This document shows, piece after piece, positions 8,932-31,359 of a stretch of DNA of 64,000 nucleotides (position 1 is the first letter of the stretch; every line of letters starts with the position of its first letter). A program made the translations under genes and the position numbers. The notes under the pieces are model-generated. The model saw nothing but the letters and a program-made list of their open reading frames with translations, did not search any database and was not told the DNA's origin. This DNA is from Nakamurella antarctica. GTDB lineage: Bacteria > Actinomycetota > Actinomycetes > Mycobacteriales > Nakamurellaceae. Location of the stretch: positions 682,001 through 746,000 of the forward strand of contig NZ_CP034170.1 in NCBI RefSeq assembly GCF_003860405.1, given 5' to 3'.

Positions 8932-9034
8932 AGGCCGACGTGAGCCCGCGCACCTAGACAACTCTCATTATTGCGGCGTAGGAGTTGTAGCTGTATTTGC
9001 CCAAGGTGGGCAGAGGATGAGGGTTTCGCTACCG

Positions 9035-13338: not shown

Positions 13339-13430
13339 GCTGGCGCAGCTAGCTCGGGTACCTAGGCTTCTGCGGTACGTCACGGCAATGCTGGGAACTG
13401 CACGCAGTGCTTTCGTGGAAAGCTAGAGAC

Positions 13431-14861
13431 ATGCGGAAATCTTGGTTGCCGAAAGTGCCCGCCAGCACTGCTTCTTGTATGGAAAGCAAACCTGCTACGG
13501 CTGGTGCTGGTGATTCGGGCGGGTTTGGACCGCGCGCATCCGCGATGGACTTCAATTCTTGGTTCAAATGCCGCAGCGTGGCCGGCTATGTTCTGGCGGC
13601 CGCTGGAGTCGCGGCTGCCGGCTTCGCTAGTTACTTTGTCGCCTCGCTGTGGGGATCACCGCGAAATCAGTTCGATCTGAAGATTTACTACAGTGCGGTG
13701 AAATATTGGGTCGGTGGCGGAAACTTGTATTCCTATGCGCAGCCTGACGCAGTGATGGGCACTTTGGGGTTTACCTACCCCCCGTTCGCTGCGACGCTGA
13801 TGACGCCTATGACTCTTCTCAGTTTGGGCGGGGCGCGGCTGTTTGCAGTGTGCACAATAGTTTTGGCCGTAGTGCTGTTGACTTGGGCCATTCTTGCCCA
13901 AAGCGCAGACCTTCGGGGCCCGAGGGGCATTCTCATTGTCGGTACGGTAGCCGCCTTCGGTCTAACGTTGGAGCCTCTTCGGGAAAACGTCACCTACGGG
14001 CAGGTAAACACCTATTTGGTGCTGCTTGTTGTAGTCGATCTTGCGGTGGTCTCCCGATACGCCCCACGATGGGGGGGGGTAGGTATAGGGCTTGCGGCGG
14101 CCATCAAGATTACACCAGGCATCTTCGTCTTGTACTTGATTGCCACAGGTAGGTGGCGTGCAGCGGGGGTGGCAGTTGGGGCTGCCGCAGCGGCAACACT
14201 TCTCAGTGCCATCATCGCGCCTGCGGAAACGTGGGAATACTTCCTGCGCACATTGTGGGACACCTCCAGAGTGGGCTTCCCAGATAGCTTGTTCAATCAG
14301 TCGATCAACGGCTTACTCGCGCGCCTAGTTTCTCCCGAGGTGCCAAACAAAATTCTGTGGATCGTTTGCGCTGCATTCATTTTGGCATTCGGATTGTGGA
14401 GAGCTAGGCATCTTTTCCGTCTGGGGGATGACCTTGCCGGGGGTGTCATAGTGGGCACAACGGGGTTGTTGATTAGCCCCGTTAGCTGGACCCACCATGC
14501 GGTGTGGGCGCTGCCAACCGTCATAGTGCTAGTCATCGTGATCAGTCAAAGGACGAAGGGCTCCCATCCTAGTAGGGGCGGGTGGCTCGGTTCGATTGGC
14601 TTGGCCTCATTGGCCATCGCAGCATTCGGATGGATCGTTGAGCCAAGTCGCTACGTTGACGACTTGATACCAGACTGGTCCAGCGCAGGCTGGACATCGC
14701 AGCTGTTGGCGTGCCTTCCGACGCTGTGGATGGTTCTCGTTGTCGTGTTTCTTCCCGCGCGCTCATTCGATCGCTATGGGGAGGGTCCTAGTACTCCTCG
14801 GCGGTCAGCAGCAGCCACTGCGCCAAGTGCGCCGCGAACGATGCCCGCACCAAAACCCTGA
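13431..14861 (+). CDS. GT87 family (DUF2029) membrane glycosyltransferase
   Basis: The 476-residue protein has about ten hydrophobic segments and the GT87 hallmarks: an early Asp in NQFDLKIYYSAVKYWVGGG, GFTYPPFAATLM, LRENVTYGQVNTYLVLL, and the C-terminal LLISPVSWTHHAVWALP. Actinobacterial GT87 enzymes, such as PimE, use polyprenyl-phosphate sugars to mannosylate lipids at the outer face of the membrane; the actual acceptor here is unknown. The start at 13431 has GGAAAG eight bases upstream; an in-frame GTG at 13407 is the alternative. Its 3' end overlaps the convergent soxAG gene by 74 bases. Position next to the NodB-like array suggests an envelope-glycan theme (inference). Confidence 0.85.
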   Translation: MRKSWLPKVPASTASCMESKPATAGAGDSGGFGPRASAMDFNSWFKCRSVAGYVLAAAGVAAAGFASYFVASLWGSPRNQFDLKIYYSAVKYWVGGGNLYSYAQPDAVMGTLGFTYPPFAATLMTPMTLLSLGGARLFAVCTIVLAVVLLTWAILAQSADLRGPRGILIVGTVAAFGLTLEPLRENVTYGQVNTYLVLLVVVDLAVVSRYAPRWGGVGIGLAAAIKITPGIFVLYLIATGRWRAAGVAVGAAAAATLLSAIIAPAETWEYFLRTLWDTSRVGFPDSLFNQSINGLLARLVSPEVPNKILWIVCAAFILAFGLWRARHLFRLGDDLAGGVIVGTTGLLISPVSWTHHAVWALPTVIVLVIVISQRTKGSHPSRGGWLGSIGLASLAIAAFGWIVEPSRYVDDLIPDWSSAGWTSQLLACLPTLWMVLVVVFLPARSFDRYGEGPSTPRRSAAATAPSAPRTMPAPKP

Positions 14862-17800
14862 CCTGGTCGGCATCTTCGCCCGGTGCGAACCCATCGGTAA
14901 TCAGGATGACCGCGCACTGGGCCAGCATGGTCTGAGCGCAACCGGTGCCCGTCATCATCGCCAGGTCGAGTGCGCAACCGTGGGCCAACACCCGCCGTGC
15001 GTTGCGACCGGAAATCCGGAGTGTGGTGCGGGAAGCCGAAACGTCAGTGACGGCAAACAGTTCTGCTTCGTCGCGGGCCAACATGCCCAATCGCGACGTC
15101 AGCTCCGCGGTCCGACCAGGGCCGGCCAACATCAAGAACTCATTGGGACCCAGAGCGAGAAACTCGACGTCGGCGCCCTCGGAGATTTTCCCGGTGCTCG
15201 TCGGTAGAGCAGCACCGAACTCCGCTTCCAGTGCGGCTGCGGCACTACCGCCCCGATAAAGACGCAGGTTCAGCATCGTCGTGAGAGGCTGCTCTGCTAC
15301 CCGGACACCCGTGGCGGGACGTCGAGAAAGCGCTGTGAGGCTGCGATTCCACTCCATCAGGGGTGACTTCGGCAAGCTAGCGGGGCCGTGGAACGGCGCG
15401 AGCGGCTCGGGTTCGCCAGCCGGGTCTCCATCTCGACGTAGACCCTCCGGGTCGAAGAGTACTGACGCTGTGACGGTCGCTGGCACGGGGACTCCATCGA
15501 CCACCGCGTACACGGTGCTGCCCATCCGGTGGTGCCCGTTGATTAACAGAGCGAGAGCAAAACTGGATGCCAAGGCCGCGGAGGGGTAGGAGGACGTGAT
15601 GTGGCCGAGCATTGCCACTGGCGGCGTCAGTGGGCCCCGGTCATCGACCAGCTGGGAGCCTTCGGGGAGGATCCGAGCCCGGTCGTGGGGAAGGAGCCCC
15701 ACCAGTTGTTTCCGGTCGGTCCGCTGGTTCTCCGGCCGCGAGTGTGAACGCTTGCCGAGATAGTCGACCTTTTTCTTAGAAACAGCCCAGCCCATCCCCA
15801 AATCCTGCGGTGTGATGGTGCCATCGGTGTCCTGACCGATGATGGGGTAACCCTTCTCAGCGCGCAGCACGTGCATGGTCTCAGTGCCATAGGGGGTGAG
15901 GCCAATCGGTTCGCCAGCCGCCCAGACACTTCCCCAGAGCGCCGCGGCGTCGAACCACGGCACGTTGATCTCGTAGGCAAGCTCGCCGGAGAAGGAAATT
16001 CGCGCCACTCGGGCGGTAAGACCCGCAACCACCGCGTCCCGCCATGCCATAAACGGAAAGTCGACGTTGTCGACGGTCAGATCGGGGGCAAGTGCGGCGA
16101 GAAGTGAGCGCGATCGTGGTCCGACCAACGCCATGGTGGCCCACTGCTCGGTCACTGAGGTGCACGCAACCCGAAGGTGCGGCCACTCGGTCTGCAGCCA
16201 CTCCTCCATCCAGTCCAGGATTTTCGCGGCGTTGCCAGTGGTCGTGGTGACGAGGAAGCGTTCGGTGGCGAGCCGGAACACGGTGCCATCGTCGAGGGTC
16301 ATCCCGTCGACGTTGCACATCACCCCGTATCGGATGGAGCCGACCTTCAGGGTCGACATCATGTTGGTGTACAGCATGTCCAGGAAGAACCCGGCATCCG
16401 GTCCCGAGACGTCGATCTTGCCGAGAGTGGAACCGTCCATGAACGCGACGGTGGTGCGTGCGGCGATGGTTTCGCGGCGAACGGCCGCGTCCATGTGTTC
16501 GCCGTCCTTCGGGTAGAACCATGGCCGCTTCCACTGCCCGACGTTCTCGAACTCCGCACCGTGTTCCACGTGCCAGCCGTGGGCGCCCGTGGTCCGCACG
16601 GGGTCGTACAGGTCGCCGCGCTCACGCCCGGCAAGGGCGGCAAACGAAATGGAGGTGTACGGGGCCCGAAACTTGGTCACACCCAGCTCGCTGATGTCAA
16701 CGCCTTGCAGCGCCGCCAATACCGCGCTGGTGACCACTCCGGAAGTCTTGCCTTGATCATGTGCGGTGCCGGCGGTGGTGTACCGCTTGACGTGTTCTAC
16801 CGAGAGCAACCCGGCGCCGCTAGCGACGGCAATCTCGGCCACGGTGACATCGCGCTGGATGTCGACGTAGTGGCCGTCAAGGGTGCGCGGGTCGACACCC
16901 GCCGGGAGCACCGCGTAGAGGGCGGCGGACGGGGCGGAAGCTTCTGGCAGGGTGTCTGCGAGGATGCCCACATCAACAGCATCACCGGCGAAAAGTGCTT
17001 GTGCCGCAGCTATTCCCGCTCGGACGGCTTGAGCGTTGGTCCGAGTGCCGGCGACGGAGCCCGCCACCGAGATGGCCTGGGTGGCCTCGCCGGGCACAAA
17101 GGCTCCGGTTCCGGGATCGAAGACCGTGTTTCCACCCGATTGGGAGAACAGCTGGACTGCTGGGTTCCAGCCGCCGCTGATAGCCAAAACCTCAGCCGTA
17201 ATGCGTTGGTAGGAGGCGTTATCCGATCCGGAAGCTGCGCCATTCGCACCGACGAGCACCGCGGACAAAGTCCCCGAGCTGTCGACCTCGGTGCCGGTCA
17301 CCACCGAATGCGCCAGGACCGTGCCCGTGAAACCCGCGGGCACGGTTGCCCCGGAAGCGCGCGGGTCCACCACACTCACGTTGGCGCCAGCGGCTTGCAG
17401 ATCTGCAGCAACCCAATAAGCGTCGTCATTTTCGGTGAATACAACGATATTGTCGCCAGCGAGAACGCCGTACCGGTGCAGGTAAACCCGAACAGATTCG
17501 GCGAGCATGACCCCGGGCACGTCGTTGCCGGCGAAGGCGATGCTGCGTTCGTGGGCGCCGGTAGCCAGGATCACGTGGCCGGCGCGAATGCGCCAGATGC
17601 GTTCGCGGACAGCGTCTTCGCCAAGTCCATGACCGGGATGATCGGTGCGGTGTTCAACGGCGATCAGGTAGTTCTTGTCGTAGTACCCGGTAACGGTGCT
17701 GCGCTGCAGGTGCGTCACGGAGGGCAGAGAGACTAGCGCCGACGTCATGTCTGCAACCCAGGCGAGCTCGGCAGGCGTGAGCAGGGCGCCACCTGCTTCT

Positions 17801-18258
17801 GGTCGGTCGTCGATCAGCAAAACTCGCACGCCTTGGCTGCCTGCCTGCAGAGCGGCGGCGAGACCGGCGGGGCCAGCTCCGACGACCAGCAGCTCGCAGT
17901 GGAAGTGAAACGCGTCGTAGCTGGCGGGGTCTGCGACCGTGGCCAGTCGGCCCTGTCCGCGGAGGGACCGCGCGACAAGACCCTCTCTCAGCTCCACGGT
18001 GGTGGCAGTCAGCATCGGCTCGGGAAACGGCTCTTCGATCTGAATGATGGCCGTACTTTCCTCGGGGCCCGCGCTGGTGATGCCGCGCGGACGGCCTTTC
18101 ATGATGGAACTTCCAACGATGCTCACGCCGTTGCCGAGCAAGGCGGAAGCTACAGTGTCGCCAGCGAAACCCTTCAATGGGGCGCCGTCAAACATGAAGG
18201 CCAGCGGCTGGTTTCGGTCGATGCGGCTACCGAAGGCGGGAAGGCGGGAGGCGCTCAT
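14788..18258 (-). CDS. soxA: sarcosine oxidase alpha-gamma fusion (SoxA-SoxG)
   Basis: This 1156-residue protein is the large subunit of heterotetrameric sarcosine oxidase, which demethylates sarcosine to glycine and passes the methyl carbon to tetrahydrofolate. Residues ~1-110 form the N-terminal ferredoxin-like domain; ~123-500 the dinucleotide-binding oxidoreductase part with LLVVGAGPAGLAAAL; then an aminomethyltransferase (GcvT-like) domain ending around GVPVPATVTASVLFDPEG. Instead of stopping there, as SoxA does at roughly 960-1000 residues, the frame continues into ~190 residues (from SPLMEWNRSLTAL) that match the separate gamma subunit SoxG. The start at 18258 overlaps the soxD stop as ATGA; an upstream extension of the frame is rejected. 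Confidence 0.9.
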   Translation of the reverse strand: MSASRLPAFGSRIDRNQPLAFMFDGAPLKGFAGDTVASALLGNGVSIVGSSIMKGRPRGITSAGPEESTAIIQIEEPFPEPMLTATTVELREGLVARSLRGQGRLATVADPASYDAFHFHCELLVVGAGPAGLAAALQAGSQGVRVLLIDDRPEAGGALLTPAELAWVADMTSALVSLPSVTHLQRSTVTGYYDKNYLIAVEHRTDHPGHGLGEDAVRERIWRIRAGHVILATGAHERSIAFAGNDVPGVMLAESVRVYLHRYGVLAGDNIVVFTENDDAYWVAADLQAAGANVSVVDPRASGATVPAGFTGTVLAHSVVTGTEVDSSGTLSAVLVGANGAASGSDNASYQRITAEVLAISGGWNPAVQLFSQSGGNTVFDPGTGAFVPGEATQAISVAGSVAGTRTNAQAVRAGIAAAQALFAGDAVDVGILADTLPEASAPSAALYAVLPAGVDPRTLDGHYVDIQRDVTVAEIAVASGAGLLSVEHVKRYTTAGTAHDQGKTSGVVTSAVLAALQGVDISELGVTKFRAPYTSISFAALAGRERGDLYDPVRTTGAHGWHVEHGAEFENVGQWKRPWFYPKDGEHMDAAVRRETIAARTTVAFMDGSTLGKIDVSGPDAGFFLDMLYTNMMSTLKVGSIRYGVMCNVDGMTLDDGTVFRLATERFLVTTTTGNAAKILDWMEEWLQTEWPHLRVACTSVTEQWATMALVGPRSRSLLAALAPDLTVDNVDFPFMAWRDAVVAGLTARVARISFSGELAYEINVPWFDAAALWGSVWAAGEPIGLTPYGTETMHVLRAEKGYPIIGQDTDGTITPQDLGMGWAVSKKKVDYLGKRSHSRPENQRTDRKQLVGLLPHDRARILPEGSQLVDDRGPLTPPVAMLGHITSSYPSAALASSFALALLINGHHRMGSTVYAVVDGVPVPATVTASVLFDPEGLRRDGDPAGEPEPLAPFHGPASLPKSPLMEWNRSLTALSRRPATGVRVAEQPLTTMLNLRLYRGGSAAAALEAEFGAALPTSTGKISEGADVEFLALGPNEFLMLAGPGRTAELTSRLGMLARDEAELFAVTDVSASRTTLRISGRNARRVLAHGCALDLAMMTGTGCAQTMLAQCAVILITDGFAPGEDADQVRVLVRASFAAHLAQWLLLTAEEY

Positions 18259-18536
18259 GCTCGTGCTCCAGGTTGCGGCGTGCCCGCGGGGTAGATGGCG
18301 GAGAACTCGTAGGTCACGGTGTCGCGAACAGCGTTGAACCAGCGGCGGCAGCCGGCGGAATGGACCCACCGTTCGGCGAAGGGCCCCCGCGTGTTGTCGC
18401 GGTAGAACAGAAACTGCGCCCACTCCTCATCCGTAAGTTCCGCCGAGTTTTCCGGGTAAGCCACATGCGCGGCGCCGCCGTAGTGGAACTCTGTCTCGTC
18501 CCGCGGCCCGCATTCGGGGCAGTCGATGAGCATCAT
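18255..18536 (-). CDS. soxD: sarcosine oxidase delta subunit
   Basis: SoxD is the small zinc-binding subunit of heterotetrameric sarcosine oxidase. The 93-residue protein has the expected ligands: Cys6 and Cys9 in DCPECG, and His59 and Cys63 in WVHSAGC. The FHYGG and EEWAQFLFYRDNTRG motifs are also typical. The gene lies 42 bases downstream of soxB and its stop overlaps the soxA start by four bases, so delta and alpha-gamma are translationally coupled. The start may be either of two adjacent ATGs (18536 or 18533). Confidence 0.93.
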   Translation of the reverse strand: MMLIDCPECGPRDETEFHYGGAAHVAYPENSAELTDEEWAQFLFYRDNTRGPFAERWVHSAGCRRWFNAVRDTVTYEFSAIYPAGTPQPGARA

Positions 18537-18578: not shown

Positions 18579-19811
18579 CTAATGAGCGACGGCAGCGGCG
18601 CCGTGCTCGTCAACGAGGAGCCCGGTGGTGAACCTGTCCAGGCTGAACGGCTGGGCGAGGGGGTGCACAGACCCAGCAGCAATGGTCGCAGCCAGAACGT
18701 CGCCTATTCCGGGGGTTGCCTTGAAACCGCCGGTGCCCCAACCGCAATTGACGTAGAGGTTTTCGACGGGCGTTTCGCCGACGATGGGGGAGGCGTCGGG
18801 GGTGGTGTCGACGATGCCGCCCCAGGTGCGGAGCACGTGGGCGCGCGCAAAGATGGGGAAAAGTTCGACGGCGGCCGACATTTGACGCTCGATAACGTGG
18901 AAGGCGCCGCGCTGGCCGTAGCCGTTGTAGGAGTCGACCCCGGCGCCCATCACGAGTTCGCCCTTATGGGCCTGCGAGACGTAAACATGCACCGCGTTGG
19001 ACATGACGACGGTGGGATGAACCTGCTCGACAAGTTCAGAAACCAAAGCCTGCAACGGATGCGACTGGATAGGCAGCCGGAAGCCAGCCATTTCCGCCAG
19101 CACCGAGGAATTGCCCGCACCGCACAGCGCCACCACGTCGGCAGTAATAGGACCGAGGTTGGTCTGCACCCCGGTCACTTTGCCGCCCGACTGGTCGATG
19201 CCTTGCACCTGGCACCCTTGAATCAAATCGACACCGGCTGCGTCGGCGGATCTGGCGAAACCCCAAGCCACGTAATCATGTTTGGCGATGCCGGCGCGCG
19301 GCTGATACGAGCCACCCATCACGGGGTAGCGGATGTTATCCGACGTATTAACGATGGGGCATAGCTCGCGAACACCGTCGAGGTCTACCCATTCGGCATC
19401 GACCCCGTTCAGCTTGTTGGCCTCGACGCGTCGCTTGGAGTCGCGGATGTCTTGCAACGAGTGGTCCAGGTTCAACACCCCGCGCTGGGAGAACAGGACC
19501 GGGTAGTCGAGCTCTTCTTCGAGGGTCTCCCACAGTTTCAGCGAGTGCTCGTAGATGCCGGCGGAGGCGTCCCAGAGATAGTTGGACCGAATAATGGTGG
19601 TGTTCCGCGCCATGTTCCCGCCGGCTAGCCAGCCCTTCTCCAGCACCGCAACATCATGAATGCCATAGCGCGTCGCGAGGTAGTGCGCGGTTGCGAGACC
19701 ATGACCGCCGCCGCCGACTATCACTACCCGGTAGTGCTTTTTGGGCGCGGGGTTGCGCCAGAGAAAGTCGGGATGACCCGGTAGATCTGCCCCGGGGGGT
19801 GGTGTCGACAT
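18579..19811 (-). CDS. soxB: sarcosine oxidase beta subunit
   Basis: SoxB carries the FAD site where sarcosine is oxidised. The 410-residue protein begins its Rossmann fold with [18 protein letters not shown], contains the region [12 protein letters not shown] with His178, which by family knowledge corresponds to the covalent FMN attachment site, and ends with [22 protein letters not shown] six bases upstream fixes the start at 19811 rather than an earlier in-frame codon at 19856. It is 62 bases downstream of the dimethylglycine oxidase gene and transcribed with it. Confidence 0.95.
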
Positions 19812-19873
19812 CACGTACTCCTTCACAGCAGTAATCTTTAGTGCAGGAATTTTCACAGCGGGGAACTGGCGAG

Positions 19874-22360
19874 CTAGCAGCGAATCTTCTTCATCTCCGG
19901 GTCGAAGCCGGGTTCGGCGGTGACCACGGCCGAATAGCGGTGTTCGAAATAGCCTACTTCTACAGCGGTTCCGGGTTCCGTGAGCGCTACTGGTAGCCAG
20001 GCAAGGGCCAGCGAAACGCCGAGGGTGTAGCTGTACGCGGCGCTCGTGACGTACCCGACTGGTTCGCCGGAGCAGTAGACGGGTTCGTTACCCAGGACCA
20101 ACGCGTCGGTGGCCGCTGTGTTCGACGCGTTTTCGAGTGCGAGGAGCACCAACCTGCGGGTGACGTGTTTTGCGCGCTCGATCAGCGCCTCGCGGCCAAT
20201 GAAGTCGCCTTTGTCGAGTTTGACCGCGAACGCCAACCCGGCCTCGTACGGATCGTGTTCGAACGTCATGTCGGTGCCGAAGGACCGGTATCCCTTTTCG
20301 ATCCGCAGCGAGTTGAACGCACCGCGGCCCGCGGCAATAATTCCATGGGGTGCACCGGTTTTCATCAATAAGTCCCAGAGCGCGAGACCTTGGTCGGCGG
20401 TGGTGTAAAGCTCCCAGCCCAGCTCGCCGACGTAGCTCAGGCGCATCGCCGTCACCTCAACGGCGCCGAGGTAGGCCTGCTTGGAGCGGAAGTATGTGAA
20501 ACCGTCATTCGAGAAGTCGGTGCTCGTGAGGGATTGCACCACATCGCGGGCCTTCGGTCCCCAGATTCCGATACAGCACGTGCCAGCGGTGATATCGCGT
20601 ATCTGGATGGGAGAGTTCGCGGGCAGGTGGCGCCGGAGCCAATCAATATCCATCGCGCCGTTCGCGCCGATTTGGTAGAGCTCGGTTTCCAGCCGGGCGA
20701 CAGTAATATCAGACCGGATCCCGCCGTCGGTGTCTAGCATGAGGCAATAAGTCACGCCGCCAACGGTTTTGGCAATATTCGCGGTGACGAGACCTTGCAG
20801 GAAATCGGTAGCACCCGGCCCGCTGACCTCGAGGCGCTTGAGGGCTGTCATGTCGTAGATGGCGACATCGTTGCGAGTAATTGCGGCCTCGGCGGCGACG
20901 GTGGGTGATGAGAACATGGCAGACCACGGGTCGGGATTCGGGACATGCCAACCGGTGTTGCGATCGGACCTAACGAGATCGTCATTGGCGGTATACCACT
21001 GCGGGCGCTCCCAGCCGCTGGCCTCGAGAAACTGCCCACCCAATTCAATCTCGCGCATGTAGAACGGCGAGGTACGCAGCGGCCGCGAATGTTCCATGGG
21101 TTGCAACGGGTGCAAAATGTCGTACACCTCGACAAAGTTCTGGCAGTCCTTTGCCAGTACGTAGGCGGGGGCGAGTTGGTGGCGCTCAAACCGGTTGACG
21201 TCCAAGGCGTGCAGGTCGAAGCTGCTGCAGTGGCCGTCGATGATCCATTCGGCCATCGCTTTACCCACTCCCGCCGAGTGCGTGACCCATACTGCTTCGG
21301 CGACCCAAAACCCTTCCACATCAGGCGACGGCCCGAGGAGCGGCAGGTTGTCCGTCGTGAAGGAGAAGACGCCGTTAATTGCTTCGGCGATCTCGATACC
21401 TTGAGCTTCTATGCGGACGGCGGACGGGATGAGCGCGGCGGTCTCGGCGAGCGGGAACTCGAAATCTTCCTGCGTGAACGGCAGGACACTGGGCATCACT
21501 TCGCCGCCCCAGGGCAGGAGTTCCTCAGCGGTGAGCGGCATCGGACGGTGCCGGTAGGAGCCAATTGCGATGCCCTCGAAGTTCTCGCGGTAGTACAGAT
21601 CCGCGTCTTGATGCCGCAGCACCGGCCGGGTGGCTTCTCGCGTGTGGCCGGTGAGACTGGGCAGCGGCTTCGTCCACGCCAATTGGTGCGCCAAGGGAGT
21701 AAGAGGCAGCGCCATCCCGACCATCTTGGCGATCTTTGGACCCCAGATACCAGCGCAGCACAGCACGATATCGGCAGGTAGGAATCCGGTGCTGGTTTTT
21801 ACTCCCGTCACCTTGCCAGCTTCGACGAGAATGTCGAGTACTTCGCAGTTGTCCTTGATGGTCACGCCGCGACTGCGGGCCCGTTCTACCTGCGCTGCAA
21901 CAGCATTGACGGCTTTTGCGATCCCATCGGTGGGGACGAAGAGGCCGCCGAGCACCATCTCCGGGTTCAGCAGATCCCACATGTGCACAGCCTCTTCGGC
22001 GGATAGCAGGCGCGCATCGGGGATACCCCACGACTGGGCGTAGCCAAATCTGCGGTTCAATTCAGCGAGACGTTCTGGTGTGGTGGCGATCTCAAGCCCG
22101 CCGACGGCGAGGTAACAGGGCTCGTCTTCCCACTGAAGTGCGGTGAACTTCTCGACCGTATACATGGCGAGGTCGCTCATCACCTTCGTTCCATTCGTCT
22201 GGAACACGACTCCGGGGGCATGTGATGTCGAGCCCCCCGCGGCTGGCAAAGTGCCTGCGTCGACAAGCGTCACGTTCGTCCAGCCACGTTCAGAAAGTTC
22301 GTCGGCCGTAGAGGCGCCAACGATCCCGCCACCAATGATGACCACCTGCGGTCCAGCCAT
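19874..22360 (-). CDS. dmg: dimethylglycine oxidase (FAD oxidoreductase plus folate-binding domain)
   Basis: The enzyme oxidises N,N-dimethylglycine to sarcosine and forms 5,10-methylene-tetrahydrofolate. The 828-residue protein closely follows Arthrobacter globiformis dimethylglycine oxidase, as I remember it, in length and motif order. The FAD fold starts [32 protein letters not shown] contains His47, corresponding to the covalent FAD histidine; [10 protein letters not shown] lies in the C-terminal folate domain, along with [15 protein letters not shown] and [20 protein letters not shown] directly upstream supports the ATG at 22360. It is 34 bases after betB. A sarcosine dehydrogenase is a less likely alternative because a full sarcosine oxidase is encoded next door. 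Confidence 0.93.
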
Positions 22361-22394: not shown

Positions 22395-23927
22395 CTAGAT
22401 GGCGTGGTGCGAGTCTGCTTTAACTACGTTCGTCATTGATGTCGGGGAGGGCGGGTTCAGCGGGGCGAACCAGTTCTGTACGGAAGGGGCGATGTTGTGC
22501 CAGATGTGCTTGATTTCGCGGTACTCGGCCAAGCCGGTGGGGCCGAGTTCACGCCCGTTTCCCGACTGGCCGAAGCCACCCCACTCTGCCTGCGGCAAGT
22601 AGGGGTGGTAGTCGTTGATCCAGACGGTGCCATGCCGCAGGGCTTCGGCGACGCGTTGGCCGCGCCCGGCGTCATTCGTCCAGACCGCGCCGGCAAGCCC
22701 GTAGACGGTGTCGTTCGCGATGTGGATGGCCTCAGCCTCGGTGGTGAAAGTCTCCACTGTCAGCACTGGTCCGAAGGATTCGGTCTGAACCACGTCCATT
22801 GCAGTGGTGCAGCCGTCGAGCACTGTTGGCAAGTAGAAGAACCCGCTCTCGAACTCCGCTCCTTCGGGCGCCTTGCCGCCGCAACGCAGGATCGCGCCTT
22901 CGGCAACACCAGCCTGCACGTAGGCGTCGACCTTGGCCCGGTGTGCAGCCGAGATGAGGGTGCCGGTTTCGGCGTCGTTATCGAAGGGGCCGCCAAGCCT
23001 GATGTGCTCGGCGCGGGCGACGACCGCGTCAACGAATGCGTCATGGATTGATTCGTGCACAATAAGCCGTGCGCCAGCGGAGCACACTTGGCCGGAGTGC
23101 AGGAATATCGCGGTAATCGCGAAGTCCACCGCGGTATTAAAATCCGCATCCGGAAAAACAATGTTCGGGTTTTTGCCACCGAGTTCCAGCGCGACCTTCT
23201 TCACGGTGGTTGCTGCGGCAGCCATGATGGCTTTGCCGGTTTCGAGGCCGCCCGTGAATGAGATCAGGTCGACGCCTGGGTGTTCTGTCAGAGTTGCACC
23301 TACGCCGCGACCGGTTCCGGTCACTAGGTTCGCAACCCCGGCGGGCAGGCCCGCCTCTGCGAGGGTATCCATCAGCAGCATGGCCGTTGACGGGGTGAGT
23401 TCGCTCGGTTTCAGGACAAAAGTGTTGCCTGCCAACAATGCTGGTGCAACTTTCCAACTGACCTGGAGGAGCGGATAGTTCCACGGGGTGATGAGCGAGC
23501 ACACGCCGACGGGTGCGACCGTAATGCGGCTGATCGCGTCCGGCCTGCCGGTGTCGACCACTCGGCCCACATCGACGCCTGCACTGGCGGCGTAATACCG
23601 GAAAGAGGCCGCGATGTCGTCCATGTCGTACTCGGCTTCGACGAGACGCTTGCCCGTGTCGAGGGCCTCGGCCCGCGCGTAAATCGCCTTATCGCGTACG
23701 AGGAGGTCGGCCACGCGCGAAAGAAGTGCTCCCCGTTCGCGTTCCGGGGTACGTGGCCACGGCCCGTCGTCGAAGGCTTTGCGCGCTGCTGCAATGGCAG
23801 CCACCCCGTGCTCCGCGGTGGCGTCTGCGACGACGCCTACCAAGGTTCCGTCTGCGGGGCAACGGATCTCGCGGGGTATCGCGCCCACGGCCTCCACCCA
23901 GGATCCGCCGATGTAGACCTTCGACAC
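22395..23927 (-). CDS. betB: betaine aldehyde dehydrogenase
   Basis: The enzyme oxidises betaine aldehyde to glycine betaine with NAD(P)+. Its 510 residues show the aldehyde dehydrogenase set: VCSLITPWNYPL, ISFTGGLETGK, the catalytic Glu in VALELGGKNPNIVF, the catalytic Cys in HSGQVCSAGARL, and ESFGPVLTVETF. The frame is open to 24035, but the GTG at 23927 has AGGAG eight bases upstream and gives the family length. It heads the operon betB - dmg - soxB - soxD - soxAG. A possible operator lies 63-79 bases upstream. Specificity is inferred from context with choline dehydrogenase. Confidence 0.9.
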   Translation of the reverse strand: MSKVYIGGSWVEAVGAIPREIRCPADGTLVGVVADATAEHGVAAIAAARKAFDDGPWPRTPERERGALLSRVADLLVRDKAIYARAEALDTGKRLVEAEYDMDDIAASFRYYAASAGVDVGRVVDTGRPDAISRITVAPVGVCSLITPWNYPLLQVSWKVAPALLAGNTFVLKPSELTPSTAMLLMDTLAEAGLPAGVANLVTGTGRGVGATLTEHPGVDLISFTGGLETGKAIMAAAATTVKKVALELGGKNPNIVFPDADFNTAVDFAITAIFLHSGQVCSAGARLIVHESIHDAFVDAVVARAEHIRLGGPFDNDAETGTLISAAHRAKVDAYVQAGVAEGAILRCGGKAPEGAEFESGFFYLPTVLDGCTTAMDVVQTESFGPVLTVETFTTEAEAIHIANDTVYGLAGAVWTNDAGRGQRVAEALRHGTVWINDYHPYLPQAEWGGFGQSGNGRELGPTGLAEYREIKHIWHNIAPSVQNWFAPLNPPSPTSMTNVVKADSHHAI

Positions 23928-23989
23928 GTCATCTGCTCCTGTTCCAGGTGCACTTGGGCGGCTGCAAGCCGTAGCCAGGAGAAGCATAC

Positions 23990-24006
23990 GTTGCGTATTA
24001 CGCGAC
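23990..24006 (-). promoter_or_regulatory. 17-bp near-perfect palindrome upstream of betB
   Basis: GTTGCGTATTACGCGAC is symmetric at all but one pair around the central T, with the core GCGTA-T-TACGC perfect. It sits in the promoter region of the betB-dmg-sox operon and resembles sites upstream of the ferredoxin operon and of purU. An IclR regulator gene is adjacent, so it is a candidate IclR operator (inference). Confidence 0.5.
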
Positions 24007-24110
24007 GCATGTGCCTCCAGAGCAACAGCATCCAATCCAGATCAGGGAGTGTCAAGGGGTAGGACAGGTTTTTGACGAAGCTGTAGCCAAATGCGCGAGC
24101 CTCTGGCAAG

Positions 24111-24920
24111 TCAGGTGCGGCGGCCCAAGCGGGGCACAGCGAAACCCATGCGGGCTGAAATCTGGCCTGCAGCTTCCACTACCAGGGCCGCGGTTGCGTC
24201 TATACGGTCGGCGGTTAACCGGAAACTGGGTCCAGAAACTGAGAGCGACGCGATTACATCGCCGTCGCCGCCGCGAATGGGCGCGGCAATCGCGGTGAGC
24301 CCTTCCTCGAGCTCATCGATGGCGACCGCGTACCCGCGCTTGGCGACGGTGTCGAGTTTGGACCGAAGGGTCTCGGGGTCCAGAACGGTGTGGCTGGTCA
24401 ACGCTGTGAAGTGTCCGGCGTTGTCGAGAATGGAGTCGATCAGCTCGTCCCGGGCCCGGAGGGATTGGTGGGCCAAGAGCACCTGGCCGTTCGCCGTGGC
24501 GTGCAGCGGGTTTCGGCGCCCCACCCAGTTGTGTATCTGAAGTGCGGATGGCCCGGCCACTTGGTCAAGGTAGAGAGTTTCACTATTTGCAAGAATCACC
24601 AGATTCACGGTTTCGCCGATGCTGTTGGCCAGATCACCTGTCACATATCGACTTTCCCGAACAACATCGAGGCGGCCGCGAGTGGCTCCGGCCAGTCGAA
24701 GGACCCCCACCCCGAGGCGGTACCGACTGTTGTGGGACACCTGTTCTACCAGGCCATGATTTTCGAGCGTGGCCACCAGCCGGAAGGCGGTTGACTTGTG
24801 CACCTTGAGAATCCCGGCCATTTCCGTGACGCCCAACTCCCCGTCGGCAGCGAGCAGCTGCAGGATAGTAAGCGCGCGGTCCACCGACTGTACGGAAGCG
24901 CCGTCGTTGGTGGAGGCCAT
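24111..24920 (-). CDS. IclR-family transcriptional regulator
   Basis: The 269-residue protein has an N-terminal winged helix-turn-helix (VQSVDRALTILQLLAADGEL, then ILKVHKSTAFRLVATLENHG) and a C-terminal effector-binding domain (HATANGQVLLAH, GYAVAIDELEEGLTAIAAPI, ASLSVSGPSFRL). IclR proteins often control nearby catabolic operons and respond to a pathway intermediate. The frame is open to 25094, but the ATG at 24920 aligns with the second IclR protein here (MGND...VQSVDRA). No strong ribosome site precedes it. It lies between betB and purU, divergent from purU, and probably controls the betaine island. The effector is unknown. Confidence 0.9.
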   Translation of the reverse strand: MASTNDGASVQSVDRALTILQLLAADGELGVTEMAGILKVHKSTAFRLVATLENHGLVEQVSHNSRYRLGVGVLRLAGATRGRLDVVRESRYVTGDLANSIGETVNLVILANSETLYLDQVAGPSALQIHNWVGRRNPLHATANGQVLLAHQSLRARDELIDSILDNAGHFTALTSHTVLDPETLRSKLDTVAKRGYAVAIDELEEGLTAIAAPIRGGDGDVIASLSVSGPSFRLTADRIDATAALVVEAAGQISARMGFAVPRLGRRT

Positions 24921-25085
24921 GGAAAATATCGGTGTTTTGGCCAGGGCAAACCCTGCTGGCGCGGGTGAATCACTGTTCGGTGGAGGGGTCGCAGGTGTCG
25001 CGTTCGGACTGTGGGTCCCGGGTGGCATTCGGGCAGCATATCGCCCCTTGACCGATCCGGAAGGAGACGGAATCATCAGACGGAA

Positions 25086-25121
25086 GTTGCGCATTGTGCT
25101 GTTCGTTGCACGGTGTGCACT
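25086..25121 (+). promoter_or_regulatory. two GTTGC-type operator-like sites upstream of purU
   Basis: GTTGCGCATTGTGCTGT at 25086-25102 matches 11 of 17 positions of the palindrome upstream of betB. A second element, GTTGCACGGTGTGCACT at 25105-25121, starts 19 bases later and contains the inverted repeat TGCAC-ggt-GTGCA. Both lie in the divergent region between the IclR gene and purU. They may bind that IclR protein (inference). Confidence 0.4.
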
Positions 25122-25196
25122 GTGGTGTCACGCTGTTTGGACGATCGCAGCGTAGAAAAGTTCGTCACTGCTCCGTCCGAATCTTTTGGAGGTCCC

Positions 25197-26068
25197 ATGT
25201 CCCCCGTCCCGCCGCTGGGCGTGAATACATACTGACGCTGACATGCACGGACGGCCCAGGGCTGGTGCACGCCGTCACCGGGTATCTGATGAAGTTCGGC
25301 GCAAACATCATGGCCAGCCAGCAGTTTGACGACAGGCTGACAGGAAAGTTCTTCATGCGGGTGCATTTCGACGCGATGGGTGCACCCGTCACATTGGAGG
25401 AATTGCGGCACGGCTTCGAGGAAGTATCGCAGGCTCACGCCATGGAGTTCGCGCTCGTCGACGTCGCTACTCCGACTCGGACGTTGATTATGGTTTCCAA
25501 GTTCGGTCACTGCCTCAACGACCTGCTGTTCCGGGCACGCGTTGGCACCTTGAATATCGATATTGCGGGGATTGTTTCCAACCATCAGGACTACGAGTCC
25601 CTTGCCGCATCCTACGAAATCCCGTATCACCACATCCCTGTTACCGCTGATACCAAGCCAGCTGCGGAGGCTGCGCTGCTTGATCTCATCGACACGGAAA
25701 ACGTCGATCTGATTGTGCTCGCTCGGTACATGCAGGTGCTGTCAGGGTCTGCCAGTAGGGCACTTTCCGGCCGCGCCATCAACATTCATCACTCGTTCTT
25801 ACCTTCCTTCAAAGGCGCCAAGCCGTATCACCAAGCGCACGAGCGCGGCGTGAAACTCATTGGTGCCACGGCGCATTACATCAATGACGACTTGGACGAA
25901 GGACCCATCATTGAGCAGGACGTGGTGCGCGTGGACCACTATTTTGATCCCGAGGAGTTGGTTGCCGCGGGCCGGGATGTGGAAACCCAAGTGCTCTCGC
26001 GCGCGGTCAAATGGCATTGCGAGCGCAGGGTCTTTCCCAACGATGGCCGAACTGTGGTCTTTCGCTAG
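25197..26068 (+). CDS. purU: formyltetrahydrofolate deformylase, apparently frameshifted at the 5' end
   Basis: PurU hydrolyses 10-formyl-THF to formate and THF, which recycles folate charged by the demethylating oxidases next door. An N-terminal ACT domain (ILTLTCTDGPGLVHAVTGYL) is followed by the formyltransferase domain with INIHHSFLPSFKGA and HYINDDLDEGPII, holding the Asn, His and Asp of the active site. The only well-placed ribosome site (TTTTGGAGG) precedes the ATG at 25197, but that frame stops after 12 codons. The PurU frame is shifted by one base and has no good start of its own. Adding one C to the run at 25201-25205 restores a protein beginning MSPRPAAGREYILTL. So one base appears lost, by mutation or sequencing error. 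Confidence 0.85.
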
Positions 26069-26155: not shown

Positions 26156-27823
26156 TCAGGCGCCGTGACGGTAGAACGGCTCGTGGGAGGGGGCCAGCGG
26201 TGCGGCGCCGAGGATTATATCGGCCGCCTTCTCCGCGAGCATCATCACGGGAGCGTAGATATTGCCGTTGGTGACGTAGGGCATCACGGAAGCATCAATC
26301 ACCCGCAGGCCAGCCGTCCCATGCACGCGTAGGGACTCTGGGTCCGTGACCGCCATCGGATCCGATTCCGGTCCCATCTTCGCGGTGCACGAAGGGTGCA
26401 GTGCGGTCTCTGCATCCTCAGCCACCCACCTGAGGATCTCTTCGTCAGTTTCCACTCGCGGTCCGGGGGAGGTTTCGCCGCCGTTGAAGGGCGTCATCGC
26501 CGGCTGATTCAAGATGTTGCGCGCAACCCGTATCGACTCGATCCATTCGCGGCGGTCTTGGTCGGTCGACAAGTAGTTGAAGCGCAGCGCCGGGTGCACG
26601 CGCGGGTCCTGTGACGTGATCTTGAGGCTGCCACGCGCATCGGAATACATCGGCCCCACGTGGACCTGATAGCCGTGGCCGGTCCGCTTCACCTCCTGGC
26701 TGACGCTGCCGTCATAGCGGACGGCGATAGGTAGGAAGTGGAACATCAGGTTGGGGTAGGCGACATCATCATTGGAGCGGACGAAACCACCGCCCTCAAA
26801 ATGGTTGGTGGAAGCGGGGCCCTTGCGCTGCAGGATCCATTTCAGACCGACGAACGGTTGCCGCCACTTCGCCAGATAGGGCTGCATGGTGACGGGCTGG
26901 GTGCACGCGTACTGGATGTACACCTCCAGGTGGTCCTGCAGGTTCTCGCCGACGCCGGGCAGGTCGACCACCGAGGTGATCCCCAGCGCCGAGAGTTCAG
27001 CGGCATTACCGATTCCCGAAAGTTGCAGCAGCTGCGGGGAATTGATCGCACCCCCGCACAAAATTACCTCGGCGGCCCTGACGACATGGTTTTTACCGTT
27101 GCGGTGGTACTCCACTCCCGTCGCTGTGGTGCCCTGGAAGACCACTCGGTTGGCCCGCGCGCGCGTGAGGACGGTCAGATTCTTGCGACGCATCACTGGG
27201 CGCAAATAGGCGCGTGAGGCCGAAAGTCGTTGCCCTCGATACACATTGCGATCGAAAGCGGCGAAACCCTCCTGTCGAAACCCGTTGACGTCGTCTGTGA
27301 GGGGGTAGCCGGCCTGCTGCGCGGCAGCAAAGAAGGCGCCGAACAGTGGGTTGGTGGCGGGACCGCGTTCCATGATGAGTGGCCCGGACTTGCCGCGGAA
27401 CTGATCGTCCGGGGCGGCGGCCAAGCAGTTCTCCATCCGACGGAAATACGGCAAACAATGAGCGAAATCCCAGTTCTCCATACCCTTTTCAGCGCCCCAG
27501 CGCTCGTAGTCAAGCGGGTTGCCACGTTGAAAGATCATGCCGTTAATCGATGATGAACCACCGAGCACCTTGCCGCGGGCGTGCGCTATCCGCCTATTGT
27601 TCAGGTTCGCCTCTGGTTCGGATTTATAACGCCAGTCGTACAGCGGGTTGCCGCTGGGGAATGTCAACGCCGCCGGCATTTGGATGAAAAGGTCCCAGGG
27701 ATAGTCGCTGCGGCCAGCCTCCAACACCAGCACCGAGGTTTCAGGGTTGGCGGAAAGCCGATTGGCCAGCACGCTTCCGGCGCTGCCTCCGCCCACGATG
27801 ACGTAGTCGTAGCTGTTCTTCAT
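26156..27823 (-). CDS. betA: choline dehydrogenase (GMC oxidoreductase)
   Basis: BetA oxidises choline to betaine aldehyde using FAD. The 555-residue protein starts with [19 protein letters not shown], contains [19 protein letters not shown], the GMC signature [16 protein letters not shown], the catalytic His in [11 protein letters not shown], and the conserved Asn in [12 protein letters not shown]. These fit BetA more than general GMC alcohol oxidases. GGGGAG precedes the ATG at 27823. The gene is divergent from the second IclR gene and convergent with purU. Confidence 0.92.
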
Positions 27824-27877
27824 CGACGCACTCCCCAGGGTGAACGAGCGGGAAAACTTCTGGCTAACTTTGCACCG

Positions 27878-27894
27878 GGCAACCTGGTGTTGCC
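27878..27894. promoter_or_regulatory. perfect 17-bp inverted repeat between betA and an IclR gene
   Basis: GGCAACCTGGTGTTGCC consists of GGCAAC and GTTGCC separated by five bases. It lies between the divergent betA (start 27823) and the second IclR gene (start 27931), where an autoregulatory IclR site would be expected. It is a candidate operator for both genes; binding is inferred. Confidence 0.5.
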
Positions 27895-27930
27895 GGTCGG
27901 CGCACAGAGGTGATCGCCTATCGTTGCGCT

Positions 27931-28701: not shown

Positions 28702-28717
28702 CACGGGGTCCACCGCC

Positions 28718-29836
28718 TCAGGCCAGCGCTTCGGTCACCCAGTCGTGAAACGCGCCGATGTGGTGTTCGTTCGGAACCAATACCCCGCCGTCCTTGTACA
28801 TCCGGGACGACATCGCTGGCTGGCACCGTTCGCAAGCGTCGAAGTCCTGTCGGTTGACGCGGTCGAAGAGTTCGACAGACTTGGTGAGGTCTTTGCCCGA
28901 GGCGACAACGCTGGGAAGGTAGAGCCAATCGCATTCGACGATGGTGCGGTCTGCTGCAATCGGGTACATCCGGTGGAAAATAATGTGGTCGGGGACCATG
29001 TTGATGAACACCTGCGGCTTGACGGTAATCGCGTAGTACTTGCGGTCTTGATCCTCGTCGATGCCGGGAAGTACGTCGAGTCCAACAGAGCCGTCAATCG
29101 TGAAACCCTTGATTTCAGGGCCGAAGTCGGCGCCGTGGTTGACGTAGTACTGGGCTGCGTAGCCATCGGCGAACTCGGGCAGCACCTCTGTGAGTTCCGG
29201 GTGGATGGTTGCGCAGTGATAGCACTCCATAAAGTTTTCGATGATGAGCTTCCAGTTCGCCTTGACGTCGTAGACGATCCGGCGGCCGACGGCGAGCGTG
29301 TCGACTTCGTAGTGGTCCAAGTTAGCGACTTCGCCGAGTCGGTCCACCACTTCTTTGAGGACGGTGTCCTCGAACGTCGGTGGGGTATCAGCGAGGCACA
29401 CCCATACGTATCCGAGCCATTCGCGCACCGCGATCTTGCGCAGGCCATATTCGACACGGTCGACGTCGGGCATCTTCGTCAGATTGGGGGCAGCGATCAA
29501 TTTGCCCTCAAAGTCATAGGTCCACGCGTGATACGGGCACTGGAAAGCGCGCTTGGCCTCGCCTTCCGGCTCGGTGCAGAGGGTGGCGCCGCGGTGCCGG
29601 CAGATGTTGAAGAAGGCATTGATATTTCCATGGCGGCTACGCGTGAGCAGTACTGATTCCGAACCAACCTGGACGGTTTTGAAAGAACCGGTTTTCGGCA
29701 TGTCGGTGGCGCGGGCGGCACAGAACCACATGGCTTCGAAGATCCGTTCCTGCTCCCGGGCGAAGTACGCCGGGTCGGTATAGGTGTGGCCCGGCAGGGT
29801 GGAGATCAACGATTCAGGGAGAATGGTGCTTGGCAT
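28718..29836 (-). CDS. Rieske-type oxygenase alpha subunit, probable glycine betaine monooxygenase
   Basis: The 372-residue protein has the Rieske 2Fe-2S ligands in CRHRGATLC and CPYHAW, and the mononuclear iron histidines in ENFMECYHCATIHPEL. This is the architecture of aromatic-ring-hydroxylating oxygenases and of the glycine betaine demethylase GbcA, which yields dimethylglycine and formaldehyde. The betaine role is inferred from its place among betA, betB, dmg and sox genes. It is the last gene of the operon ferredoxin - reductase - oxygenase. GGAG six bases upstream supports the ATG at 29836. Another quaternary-amine substrate such as carnitine or stachydrine cannot be excluded. Confidence 0.88.
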   Translation of the reverse strand: MPSTILPESLISTLPGHTYTDPAYFAREQERIFEAMWFCAARATDMPKTGSFKTVQVGSESVLLTRSRHGNINAFFNICRHRGATLCTEPEGEAKRAFQCPYHAWTYDFEGKLIAAPNLTKMPDVDRVEYGLRKIAVREWLGYVWVCLADTPPTFEDTVLKEVVDRLGEVANLDHYEVDTLAVGRRIVYDVKANWKLIIENFMECYHCATIHPELTEVLPEFADGYAAQYYVNHGADFGPEIKGFTIDGSVGLDVLPGIDEDQDRKYYAITVKPQVFINMVPDHIIFHRMYPIAADRTIVECDWLYLPSVVASGKDLTKSVELFDRVNRQDFDACERCQPAMSSRMYKDGGVLVPNEHHIGAFHDWVTEALA

Positions 29837-29863: not shown

Positions 29864-31042
29864 CTATCGTGGTTGGCTGAAAACTGCTTGCAAAGCTTTG
29901 CGGTGCTTAGTGAATGCCCGGGGCTGGTTGAGTCCCAGAACAGCGACGATGCGGCCCTCGCGCCGCCATGTCGCCAGCATATTGTCCGAGCCGAGCTCCC
30001 CGTCTTCGATGACGAGTTCGTCTGTGTCGAGTCGATGGCCAGCGAACTGAATCGTCACGCCGTACTGATCGGACCAGAAATAGGGTGCCTTGAGGGTGGC
30101 TGGTTCTGCAGGATTGGCCCCGCTCAGCCAGCCCTTGACCGCTAATGCTGGCCGCTGCTGTGAGTCGGTCCAGTGTTCAACGCGATGCGCCCGGCCAAGA
30201 GTCGCATCGAACCACGCTGAGCAGTCGCCGACGGCGAACACCCCCGGTGCCGAGGTGGCGCCCTGGGCATCGCACAGCACGCCGTTACCTACACTCAGAC
30301 CAGAGCTGACCAGCCAGCCCGTCTCTGCGTCCGCCCCAATGCCCGCGACGACGACGTCCGCTGGCAGCACGCGTCCGCTGGCCAGTTCAACTGCGTGGAC
30401 GCGGTCGGTGCCCTTGAGAGCAACGACGGGGTCGCCGACGAGTAGGTTGACGCCGTTGCGCGAGTGGAGCCCTGCTACGGCCGCTCCGACCTCGATCCCC
30501 AACTGGCGAAGCAGTGGTGCGGGAGCAGCTTCGAGTACGGTGACATCGAGGCCGAGACCCTTTGCGGTGGAGGCAACTTCGGCCCCAATAAATCCAGCAC
30601 CGATGACGACCAGTCGGGCGCCCGACTGCAATTCGGCCTTCAATGAGCGGGCATCGGACAGCGTGCGCAGCGAGTGCACTCCGGACAGTTCGGTGGCCAT
30701 CCGCCGCGCGCGCGAACCGGTGGCAATGAAGACAGCAGCGCCGCTCACCTTGTCCCCGCTGGCAAGGCTAACAGTGGTGGTAGCGGGGTCGAGAGCGATT
30801 GCCTCGGCGCCGAGAATCCAGTCAGCGTCAATCGTTTCGCCTGCCGTCTCTAAACTCAGGTCCGCCTCGGTGGCGGTGCCCGCGAGGTATTCCTTCGACA
30901 ACGGCGGTCTGTCGTACGGTCGCTCGGTTTCGGCCCCGATGATGCGAATGACGCCCTCAAAACCCTGCTGCCGCAGCGCCTTTGCGGTTGCGTGCCCGGC
31001 AAGTGCGGCGCCGACGATGACGGCTGAGGCCTTGGCCGTCAT
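29864..31042 (-). CDS. NAD(P)H ferredoxin reductase (FAD)
   Basis: The 392-residue flavoprotein resembles reductases of Rieske oxygenase systems. It contains the FAD-binding AVIVGAALAGHATAKAL, ERPYDRPPLSKEYLAG, the NAD-binding LVVIGAGFIGAEVAS, and the C-terminal GVFAVGDCSAW with YFWSDQYGVTIQFAG. It would pass electrons to the Rieske ferredoxin encoded just upstream, and so to the oxygenase downstream. The start at 31042 overlaps the ferredoxin stop (ATGA). The upstream extension of this frame lies inside the ferredoxin gene and is not coding. Confidence 0.9.
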   Translation of the reverse strand: MTAKASAVIVGAALAGHATAKALRQQGFEGVIRIIGAETERPYDRPPLSKEYLAGTATEADLSLETAGETIDADWILGAEAIALDPATTTVSLASGDKVSGAAVFIATGSRARRMATELSGVHSLRTLSDARSLKAELQSGARLVVIGAGFIGAEVASTAKGLGLDVTVLEAAPAPLLRQLGIEVGAAVAGLHSRNGVNLLVGDPVVALKGTDRVHAVELASGRVLPADVVVAGIGADAETGWLVSSGLSVGNGVLCDAQGATSAPGVFAVGDCSAWFDATLGRAHRVEHWTDSQQRPALAVKGWLSGANPAEPATLKAPYFWSDQYGVTIQFAGHRLDTDELVIEDGELGSDNMLATWRREGRIVAVLGLNQPRAFTKHRKALQAVFSQPR

Positions 31043-31359
31043 GGCGCCGGCAGGGTGGATAGCTCCACGTAAATCTCGTCGTTGGTCACGGTGACGAGGT
31101 GGGTTCGAACCCCGCGCTTGGCCGGAGGTGCGTCCACGACGCCGGTCCGAAGGTTGAATTTGCTGGCGTGCAAGGGGCATTCAACTTCGCAGCCCTCGAG
31201 CCAGCCATCGGCGAGGGAAGCATCTTGGTGCGTACAGGTGTCGTCGATGGCGAGCACTTCGCCATTCTCGGTATGGAAAATGGCGATTGGCGGATCGACC
31301 TGGGTAATGCGCAGCGCCTCGCCGCGGGGGAGGGCGGCGAGGGAACAGATATGTTGCAC
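31039..31359 (-). CDS. Rieske [2Fe-2S] ferredoxin
   Basis: The 106-residue protein is a small Rieske electron carrier, with ligands in CTHQDASLADG (Cys-x-His) and ECPLHASKFN (Cys-x-x-His). It begins MQHICSLAALPRGEAL from a GTG at 31359, which has GAGG at a good distance; GTG at 31368 is an alternative. It is the first gene of the three-component oxygenase operon and overlaps the reductase start. In Pseudomonas the GbcAB system combines ferredoxin and reductase in one protein; here they are separate. Confidence 0.88.
   Translation of the reverse strand: MQHICSLAALPRGEALRITQVDPPIAIFHTENGEVLAIDDTCTHQDASLADGWLEGCEVECPLHASKFNLRTGVVDAPPAKRGVRTHLVTVTNDEIYVELSTLPAP

Follow-up and report, generated by a model that had tools for sequence, protein, structure and literature searches.

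The sox locus of Nakamurella antarctica

The window considered here is a stretch of 64,000 nucleotides of Nakamurella antarctica, positions 682001-746000 of the contig NZ_CP034170.1 (assembly GCF_003860405.1), which belongs to a single-contig genome of 3.38 Mb. Its reverse strand carries the genes of a heterotetrameric sarcosine oxidase (TSOX), a flavoenzyme with alpha (SoxA), beta (SoxB), gamma (SoxG) and delta (SoxD) chains. There are three genes rather than four subunit genes, and the gamma part continues the alpha part in a single frame. The features of the locus are listed in Table 1.

Table 1. Features of the sox locus and of the neighbouring genes, in window coordinates.
Feature	Position	Strand	Evidence
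soxA-soxG fusion gene, 1156 residues	14788..18258	-	open frame; domain matches; fusion also in 5 other genus genomes
SoxA (alpha) body, residues 1-944, C-terminal RRDG as in separate SoxA	15427..18258	-	2gag_A, 1vrq_A alignments
Linker, residues 945-964 (20 residues)	15367..15426	-	starts at the place of the soxA stop in separate relatives
SoxG (gamma) domain, residues 965-1156	14791..15366	-	TIGR01375 (under cut-off), PDB gamma chains
soxD (delta)	18255..18536	-	TIGR01374, 126.1 bits vs 116.5 cut-off; 2gag_D match
soxB (beta), start codon uncertain	18579..19856	-	TIGR01373, 594.1 bits vs 529.45 cut-off
Dimethylglycine-oxidase-like gene	19874..22360	-	DAO, FAO_M, GCV_T, GCV_T_C
Betaine-aldehyde-dehydrogenase-like gene	22395..24035	-	Aldedh; BADH is the top NCBIfam model (under cut-off)
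IclR-type regulator	24111..25094	-	IclR_C, HTH_IclR
Formyltetrahydrofolate-deformylase-like gene, purU candidate	25094..26068	+	Formyl_trans_N
GMC oxidoreductase, candidate for choline oxidation	26156..27823	-	GMC_oxred_N, GMC_oxred_C
Rieske oxygenase, glycine-betaine monooxygenase candidate	28718..29836	-	Rieske, Ring_hydroxyl_A
Ferredoxin-reductase-like gene, glycine-betaine monooxygenase candidate	29864..31180	-	Pyr_redox_2, Reductase_C

An initial annotation of this DNA had proposed that SoxA and SoxG are joined in one polypeptide, and the coordinates that it gave are exact. Translation yields 1156 uninterrupted codons followed by TAG, and Pfam, NCBIfam and PDB-chain sequences agree on the two parts. 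Along the fused chain, the Pfam domains occur in the order Fer2_4, Pyr_redox_2, SO_alpha_A3, GCV_T, GCV_T_C and SoxG. The five domains of SoxA form a complete set, all over their gathering scores and located within residues 17-936, while the SoxG match covers residues 1006-1150 (E 8.7e-6, 26.4 bits vs. a gathering score of 21). The gamma-like domain, placed in that annotation at about 14788-15366, is indeed complete. The NCBIfam model for SoxG (TIGR01375) is matched from position 6 to position 152 of its 152 positions by residues 1003-1155 (E 7.2e-23). At the level of sequence, the alpha chains of solved structures align up to residue 944 (2gag_A over 10-944 and 1vrq_A over 7-944), the gamma chain 1vrq_C aligns to residues 964-1153, and the gamma part is also matched by the chains 3ad7_C and 2gag_C.

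An identity as dimethylglycine oxidase or dehydrogenase was rejected for the fused chain, because the N-terminal DAO flavin domain is lacking: DAO (PF01266) is absent from the 13 Pfam families matched by the chain (E <= 0.001), and it is the neighbouring gene at 19874-22360 that has it. It should be noted that the fusion gene is overlapped tail to tail at its 3' end, by 74 bases (14788-14861), by a glycosyltransferase-family-87 gene on the forward strand (13407-14861), the C-terminal residues of whose product appear to be of low complexity.

A structure model of the fusion was built from 18 fused proteins. The whole model has a predicted local distance difference test score (pLDDT) of 65.4 and a predicted template modelling score of 0.55, with ten-residue blocks from residue 961 on at 69-88. 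Its top Foldseek matches are 1vrq_A and 2gag_A; Foldseek also lists 2gag_C (TMt 0.86, root-mean-square deviation (rmsd) 2.8, 31% identity), which is taken to be the match of the gamma part, and 1vrq_C (TMt 0.84). VIA-align gave 2gag_A with Z 40.7 across 804 residues and an rmsd of 13.9, and gamma chains are absent among its best 50 matches of the model. The gamma part folded alone reached a pLDDT of 38.7, and this model is useless. With the middling confidence of the whole model, the placing of gamma on alpha is not reliable.

Conservation and junction of the fusion

A SoxA relative (E <= 1e-60) is present in eight of the 17 Nakamurella genomes, and six of the eight have the open SoxA-SoxG fusion. 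In the five other than the window, among them Nakamurella endophytica as a named case, the fused frame runs without a stop along query residues 1-1156 (4-1156 in one), with protein identities of 62-67% to the window. Among the six fused genes, the proportions of nonsynonymous (pN) and synonymous (pS) differences in the SoxG part are 0.13-0.37 and 0.43-0.66, with pN smaller than pS in 15/15 pairs, and the third codon position differs most (0.49 vs. 0.33 and 0.25). The SoxG part is thus under purifying selection. Of all parts of the fusion, the linker shows the weakest conservation.

The junction was compared with those of 103 actinobacterial loci with separate genes, which include many close relatives, Streptomyces above all. 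The separate SoxA ends in RRDG at its stop in 94 of these loci, and the stop is TGA in 93. In all but one of the 103, soxG lies in the +1 frame relative to soxA, and wherever the junctions were inspected an apparent start codon of soxG lies within the end of soxA. Deleting the first base of the soxA stop opens the frame into the whole of soxG in 101 loci (the exceptions are L056 and L091), a count that is largely geometric, as a soxG starting inside soxA keeps the frame open there; what is really observed is that the frame relation is conserved. One of the exceptions, L056 from Streptosporangium minutum, has an insert of ~200 bases between soxA and soxG (8740-8967), whose translation looks repeated; its soxG shares the frame of soxA, from which stop codons separate it, in contrast to the remaining 102 loci.

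In the fused genes of Nakamurella, RRDG is followed by DP in five of six cases, with GAC in the window, L005, L006 and L009 and GAT in L008, and by VA in the sixth (L007). The junction DNA reads GGA GAC CCG in the window, compared with GGC TGA in the separate relatives. RRDG-DP is the expected outcome of losing one T of the stop, and one lost base would therefore explain the join. In this scheme, the ancestral soxG would have begun within the final codons of soxA, in the +1 frame; dropping one base at the soxA stop (GGC TGA C to GGC GAC) would then have abolished the stop and at once put soxA in frame with soxG.

Then, could the fusion be an error of sequencing or assembly, with one base lost at the overlapping junction and the genes separate in the cell? 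The initial annotation had left room for this, and the geometry of the separate relatives means that a single missing base at the stop suffices. It had also reasoned that an indel would have to preserve the frame into soxG; a one-base stop loss does so in nearly all of the separate loci, so frame preservation alone would not exclude an error. Separate soxA and soxG genes do occur in two other genomes of the genus, G005 and G009. However, their SoxA copies fall on other branches of the SoxA tree and consequently are not the unfused version of the window gene. The copy in G009 (L111, 6775-9712) has a separate soxG and a soxA without its first 178 residues, and looks broken and relocated; soxB and soxD were not found beside this remnant within the 16 kb examined. 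What decides the matter is that the same open fusion occurs in five more Nakamurella genomes with differing junction DNA and linkers, and frames that have diverged to 62-67% identity could not share a single error. The six genomes thus refute an error, to which we attach practically no weight. We conclude, with a probability of roughly 0.88, that the window holds a genuine alpha-gamma gene fusion of heterotetrameric sarcosine oxidase (soxB-soxD-soxA::soxG), for which a one-base origin and an enzyme of three chains may be inferred.

The fused and separate genes also differ in the distance from RRDG to the S-P-L motif, the earliest conserved motif of SoxG; this distance has a median of 20 residues in fused genes (n 13) vs. 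nine in separate ones (n 86), or six after dereplication of the latter (n 34). This comparison relies on the motif SPL/SPA/SRL/SAL, in whose absence eight of the 94 separate RRDG loci were dropped; the match in the fused L118 (5) is early and thus conservative, and related rows are not independent. We read the longer spacer as a probable later adaptation to bridging two domains.

Distribution and probable independent origins

The genome survey covered Actinomycetota, in samples of order, class and phylum that overlap. Among the matches listed for the 298 genomes of the order, there are 62 SoxG places (E <= 1e-12), six of them in frames of >1000 residues, all from this genus. The class sample of 394 genomes gave 52 SoxG places, with eight in long frames (one in the window, the others in seven members of the family f103), and the 396 genomes of the phylum gave 38, with five in long frames (the window and four genomes of the family f53). 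All four f53 genomes examined have the fusion. In the class of f53 (66 genomes, limit 1e-10), one further fusion was found in G690 (L120), a single row of 53% completeness that could be an artefact. Extracted frames of 18 fused genomes all hold SoxA and then SoxG. Family f103 is probably Streptosporangiaceae, as another of its members groups with Microbispora. Relative to Nakamurella, a stretch is missing from the gamma part of the f103 fusions (L113-L119). SoxG also appears short in L134, where it is separate, so that the shortening need not go with fusion.

Phyla outside Actinomycetota were covered through plasmids. Among the best 60 of 106 records found with the SoxG of Microvirga as query, 47 name a gamma feature, one gives a "hypothetical protein" and 12 have no feature or annotation at the place. 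The one inspected among these 12 is the actinobacterium Nonomuraea gerenzanensis (NZ_LT559118.1, L147), a second named case of the fusion, which may coincide with one of the surveyed genomes. This record is 11.85 Mb long and of chromosome size, and is filed as "plasmid I" with 10 annotated features. The search for long SoxA proteins with a SoxG domain, which the initial annotation had recommended, thus shows through three further genome groups (f103, f53 and G690) and N. gerenzanensis that the fusion is not unique to Nakamurella. For the reading of these loci, it should be noted that the match of the alpha profile extended into gamma, a related domain, in L008, L009, L012 and L102-L105, where gamma was confirmed in the same frame, that L109 and L112 repeat the L008 and L009 loci with wider margins, and that L035 ends at a contig end before soxG.

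A tree of SoxA only was calculated for 68 rows by a quick method (LG+G4, midpoint root), with support from the Shimodaira-Hasegawa-like approximate likelihood-ratio test only. It used 26 of the 79 loci L013-L091 and left out L012 and L106-L112 (repeats of other loci), L002-L004 (GcvT-type paralogues of the own genome), L092-L101 and L131 (no SoxA frame within the set limits) and L141 (too short); L138, L140 and L011 were further omitted from the approximately unbiased (AU) test, and L145-L147 were part of no tree. On the tree, the fused state requires four changes, all forced by branches with support >=95, although with midpoint rooting some of them could be gene splits instead of fusions, and the fourth origin rests on the single genome G690. 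In the AU test (65 rows), the grouping of all fused rows was rejected (p 0.0191), as was that of Nakamurella with f103 (p 0.0201), p values that are weakened by groups having been chosen after the tree was seen. On the four changes and the AU results, fusion as a single event was rejected.

The fusion therefore appears to have arisen several separate times in actinobacteria, and from the AU rejection of Nakamurella with f103, these two groups, both with RRDG junctions, seem to have arrived independently at the same join. We lean slightly towards a more general view, in which the soxA/soxG overlap would be a standing fusion hot spot, where loss of a single base of the stop joins the subunits, the product having been kept in at least four actinobacterial lineages and its spacer lengthened afterwards. 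In a bolder form, unfused species may already make some alpha-gamma chain via ribosomal frameshifting at the overlap.

The other subunits, the gene neighbourhood and the enzyme

Both the window and 17/17 other fused loci have soxB and soxD ahead of the fusion gene on the same strand. In the window, the stop of soxD and the start of soxA overlap by four bases (ATGA). SoxD has C6, C9, H59 and C63, which we take to be the zinc ligands of the delta subunit (Cys6, Cys9, His59 and Cys63). SoxB aligns to 1vrq_B (701 bits) and 2gag_B across residues 25-425, and its H193 sits at the position of His173 in 2GAG (offset 20 to 2gag_B). In the beta chain of 2GAG, the enzyme of Stenotrophomonas, His173 binds flavin mononucleotide (FMN) covalently (PMC9045290).

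The dimethylglycine-oxidase-like gene has a relative nearby in 5/5 other fused Nakamurella loci. By the family names in Table 1, the cluster may be read as a route from choline through glycine-betaine, dimethylglycine and sarcosine to glycine, with the fused enzyme as the last step. A frame of 297 residues without a Pfam match (E <= 1e-8) lies between the genes of the GMC oxidoreductase and the Rieske oxygenase (27820-28713).

The likely product, a reasonable inference from the sequence, is an alpha-gamma/beta/delta enzyme of three chains, with the alpha-gamma chain assembling with beta and delta. Its chemistry would be as usual, that is, sarcosine would be oxidised to glycine at the beta flavin site, with H2O2 as a further product, and the methylene group passed to folate at the GcvT-like domain of alpha; the fusion would set alpha and gamma at 1:1, joined through a spacer of about 20 residues.

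Several points weigh against this picture. The window protein stays below the curated NCBIfam cut-offs both for soxA (TIGR01372, 1086.3 bits vs. 1164) and for soxG (TIGR01375, 81.1 bits vs. 143.95), and in seven further fused proteins scanned SoxG was under its cut-off in all seven and SoxA in six (L120 was over), while two separate SoxA proteins scanned alongside were both over. The TIGR01375 cut-off is seldom passed in the order anyway (4/298 genomes). The fused forms are accordingly somewhat diverged from the curated family, which lowers the claim of sarcosine as the substrate, and sarcosine is assumed here. The fused protein could then be related to sarcosine oxidase but differ in its role or its substrate, which might be another N-methyl amino acid. 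This would be compatible with the fusion, but we consider it unlikely, as SoxB and SoxD pass their cut-offs, SoxB aligns to 1vrq_B as given above, and the cluster reads as a choline/glycine-betaine route with the dimethylglycine-oxidase-like gene adjoining.

It might also be argued that free gamma is still made, by internal initiation or by proteolysis in the linker, and that the working enzyme is the ordinary four-chain complex. The variable linker is what a cleavable or idle spacer would look like, and the fused genes have in-frame ATG, GTG or TTG codons in or past the linker, a few with a purine-rich match of 3-4 bases ahead; ATG codons 52 and 54 codons after RRDG, in the gamma body, are partly common to the window, L005 and L006. 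However, the six Nakamurella fusions do not share any start codon in the linker, the nearest TTG and ATG of the window (21 and 27 codons after the RRDG start) have no Shine-Dalgarno-like match in a simple scan, and a start at 52-54 would remove the first part of the gamma domain. Production of free gamma is thus improbable, and an enzyme built with a one-piece alpha-gamma chain is preferred.

Comparison with known systems and implications

Compared with the TSOX structures of Stenotrophomonas maltophilia (2GAG) and Corynebacterium sp. U-96 (1VRQ, 1X31 and 3AD7-3ADA), the window has the same alpha from end to end, the same delta, the same beta with the FMN histidine and a gamma matched over most of its length; the difference is that alpha and gamma are one chain here and the separate chains A and C there. 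The gene order is the same as in separate soxBDAG operons, such as those of other actinobacteria and of the Microvirga plasmid pMVF16-5 (NZ_CP069359.1), where soxG overlaps the end of soxA by eight bases (5954-5961 of L145). In those operons soxA keeps its own stop and soxG its own start. In N. gerenzanensis and the seven f103 genomes, RRDG likewise continues into DP, EP or IP with no stop codon. However, the f103 fusions are on another branch of the SoxA tree than Nakamurella (L147 is not in the tree), and their gamma is shorter in several.

A parallel from unrelated proteins is the engineered HsdM-HsdS fusion of EcoKI, which works after removal of the frameshift between hsdM and hsdS, whose genes overlap by one base (PMC3510504). 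There too, adjacent subunits of a complex are encoded by overlapping genes, although that fusion was made in the laboratory. For a transferred soxBDAG operon, soxA and soxG are given as separate genes, and a word search of the available text found no mention of a fusion (PMC3691474). In the open-access literature searched, there is neither a description of a SoxA-SoxG fusion nor the term "soxAG", which is weak evidence with subscription journals mostly outside the search; this fits the initial annotation, in which no earlier description was known.

The alpha-gamma fusion is a well-known enzyme in an uncommon form, with a simple mechanism, conserved and apparently recurrent. The loss of one chain by a four-chain flavoenzyme can be studied here in a natural setting: only about one base sets fused junctions apart from separate ones, the event seems to have happened more than once, and separate forms survive in related bacteria. 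For genome annotation, a call of "SoxG missing" in the fused genomes would be wrong. Sarcosine oxidase is used in creatinine assays, and a one-piece alpha-gamma chain may ease the assembly of the enzyme.

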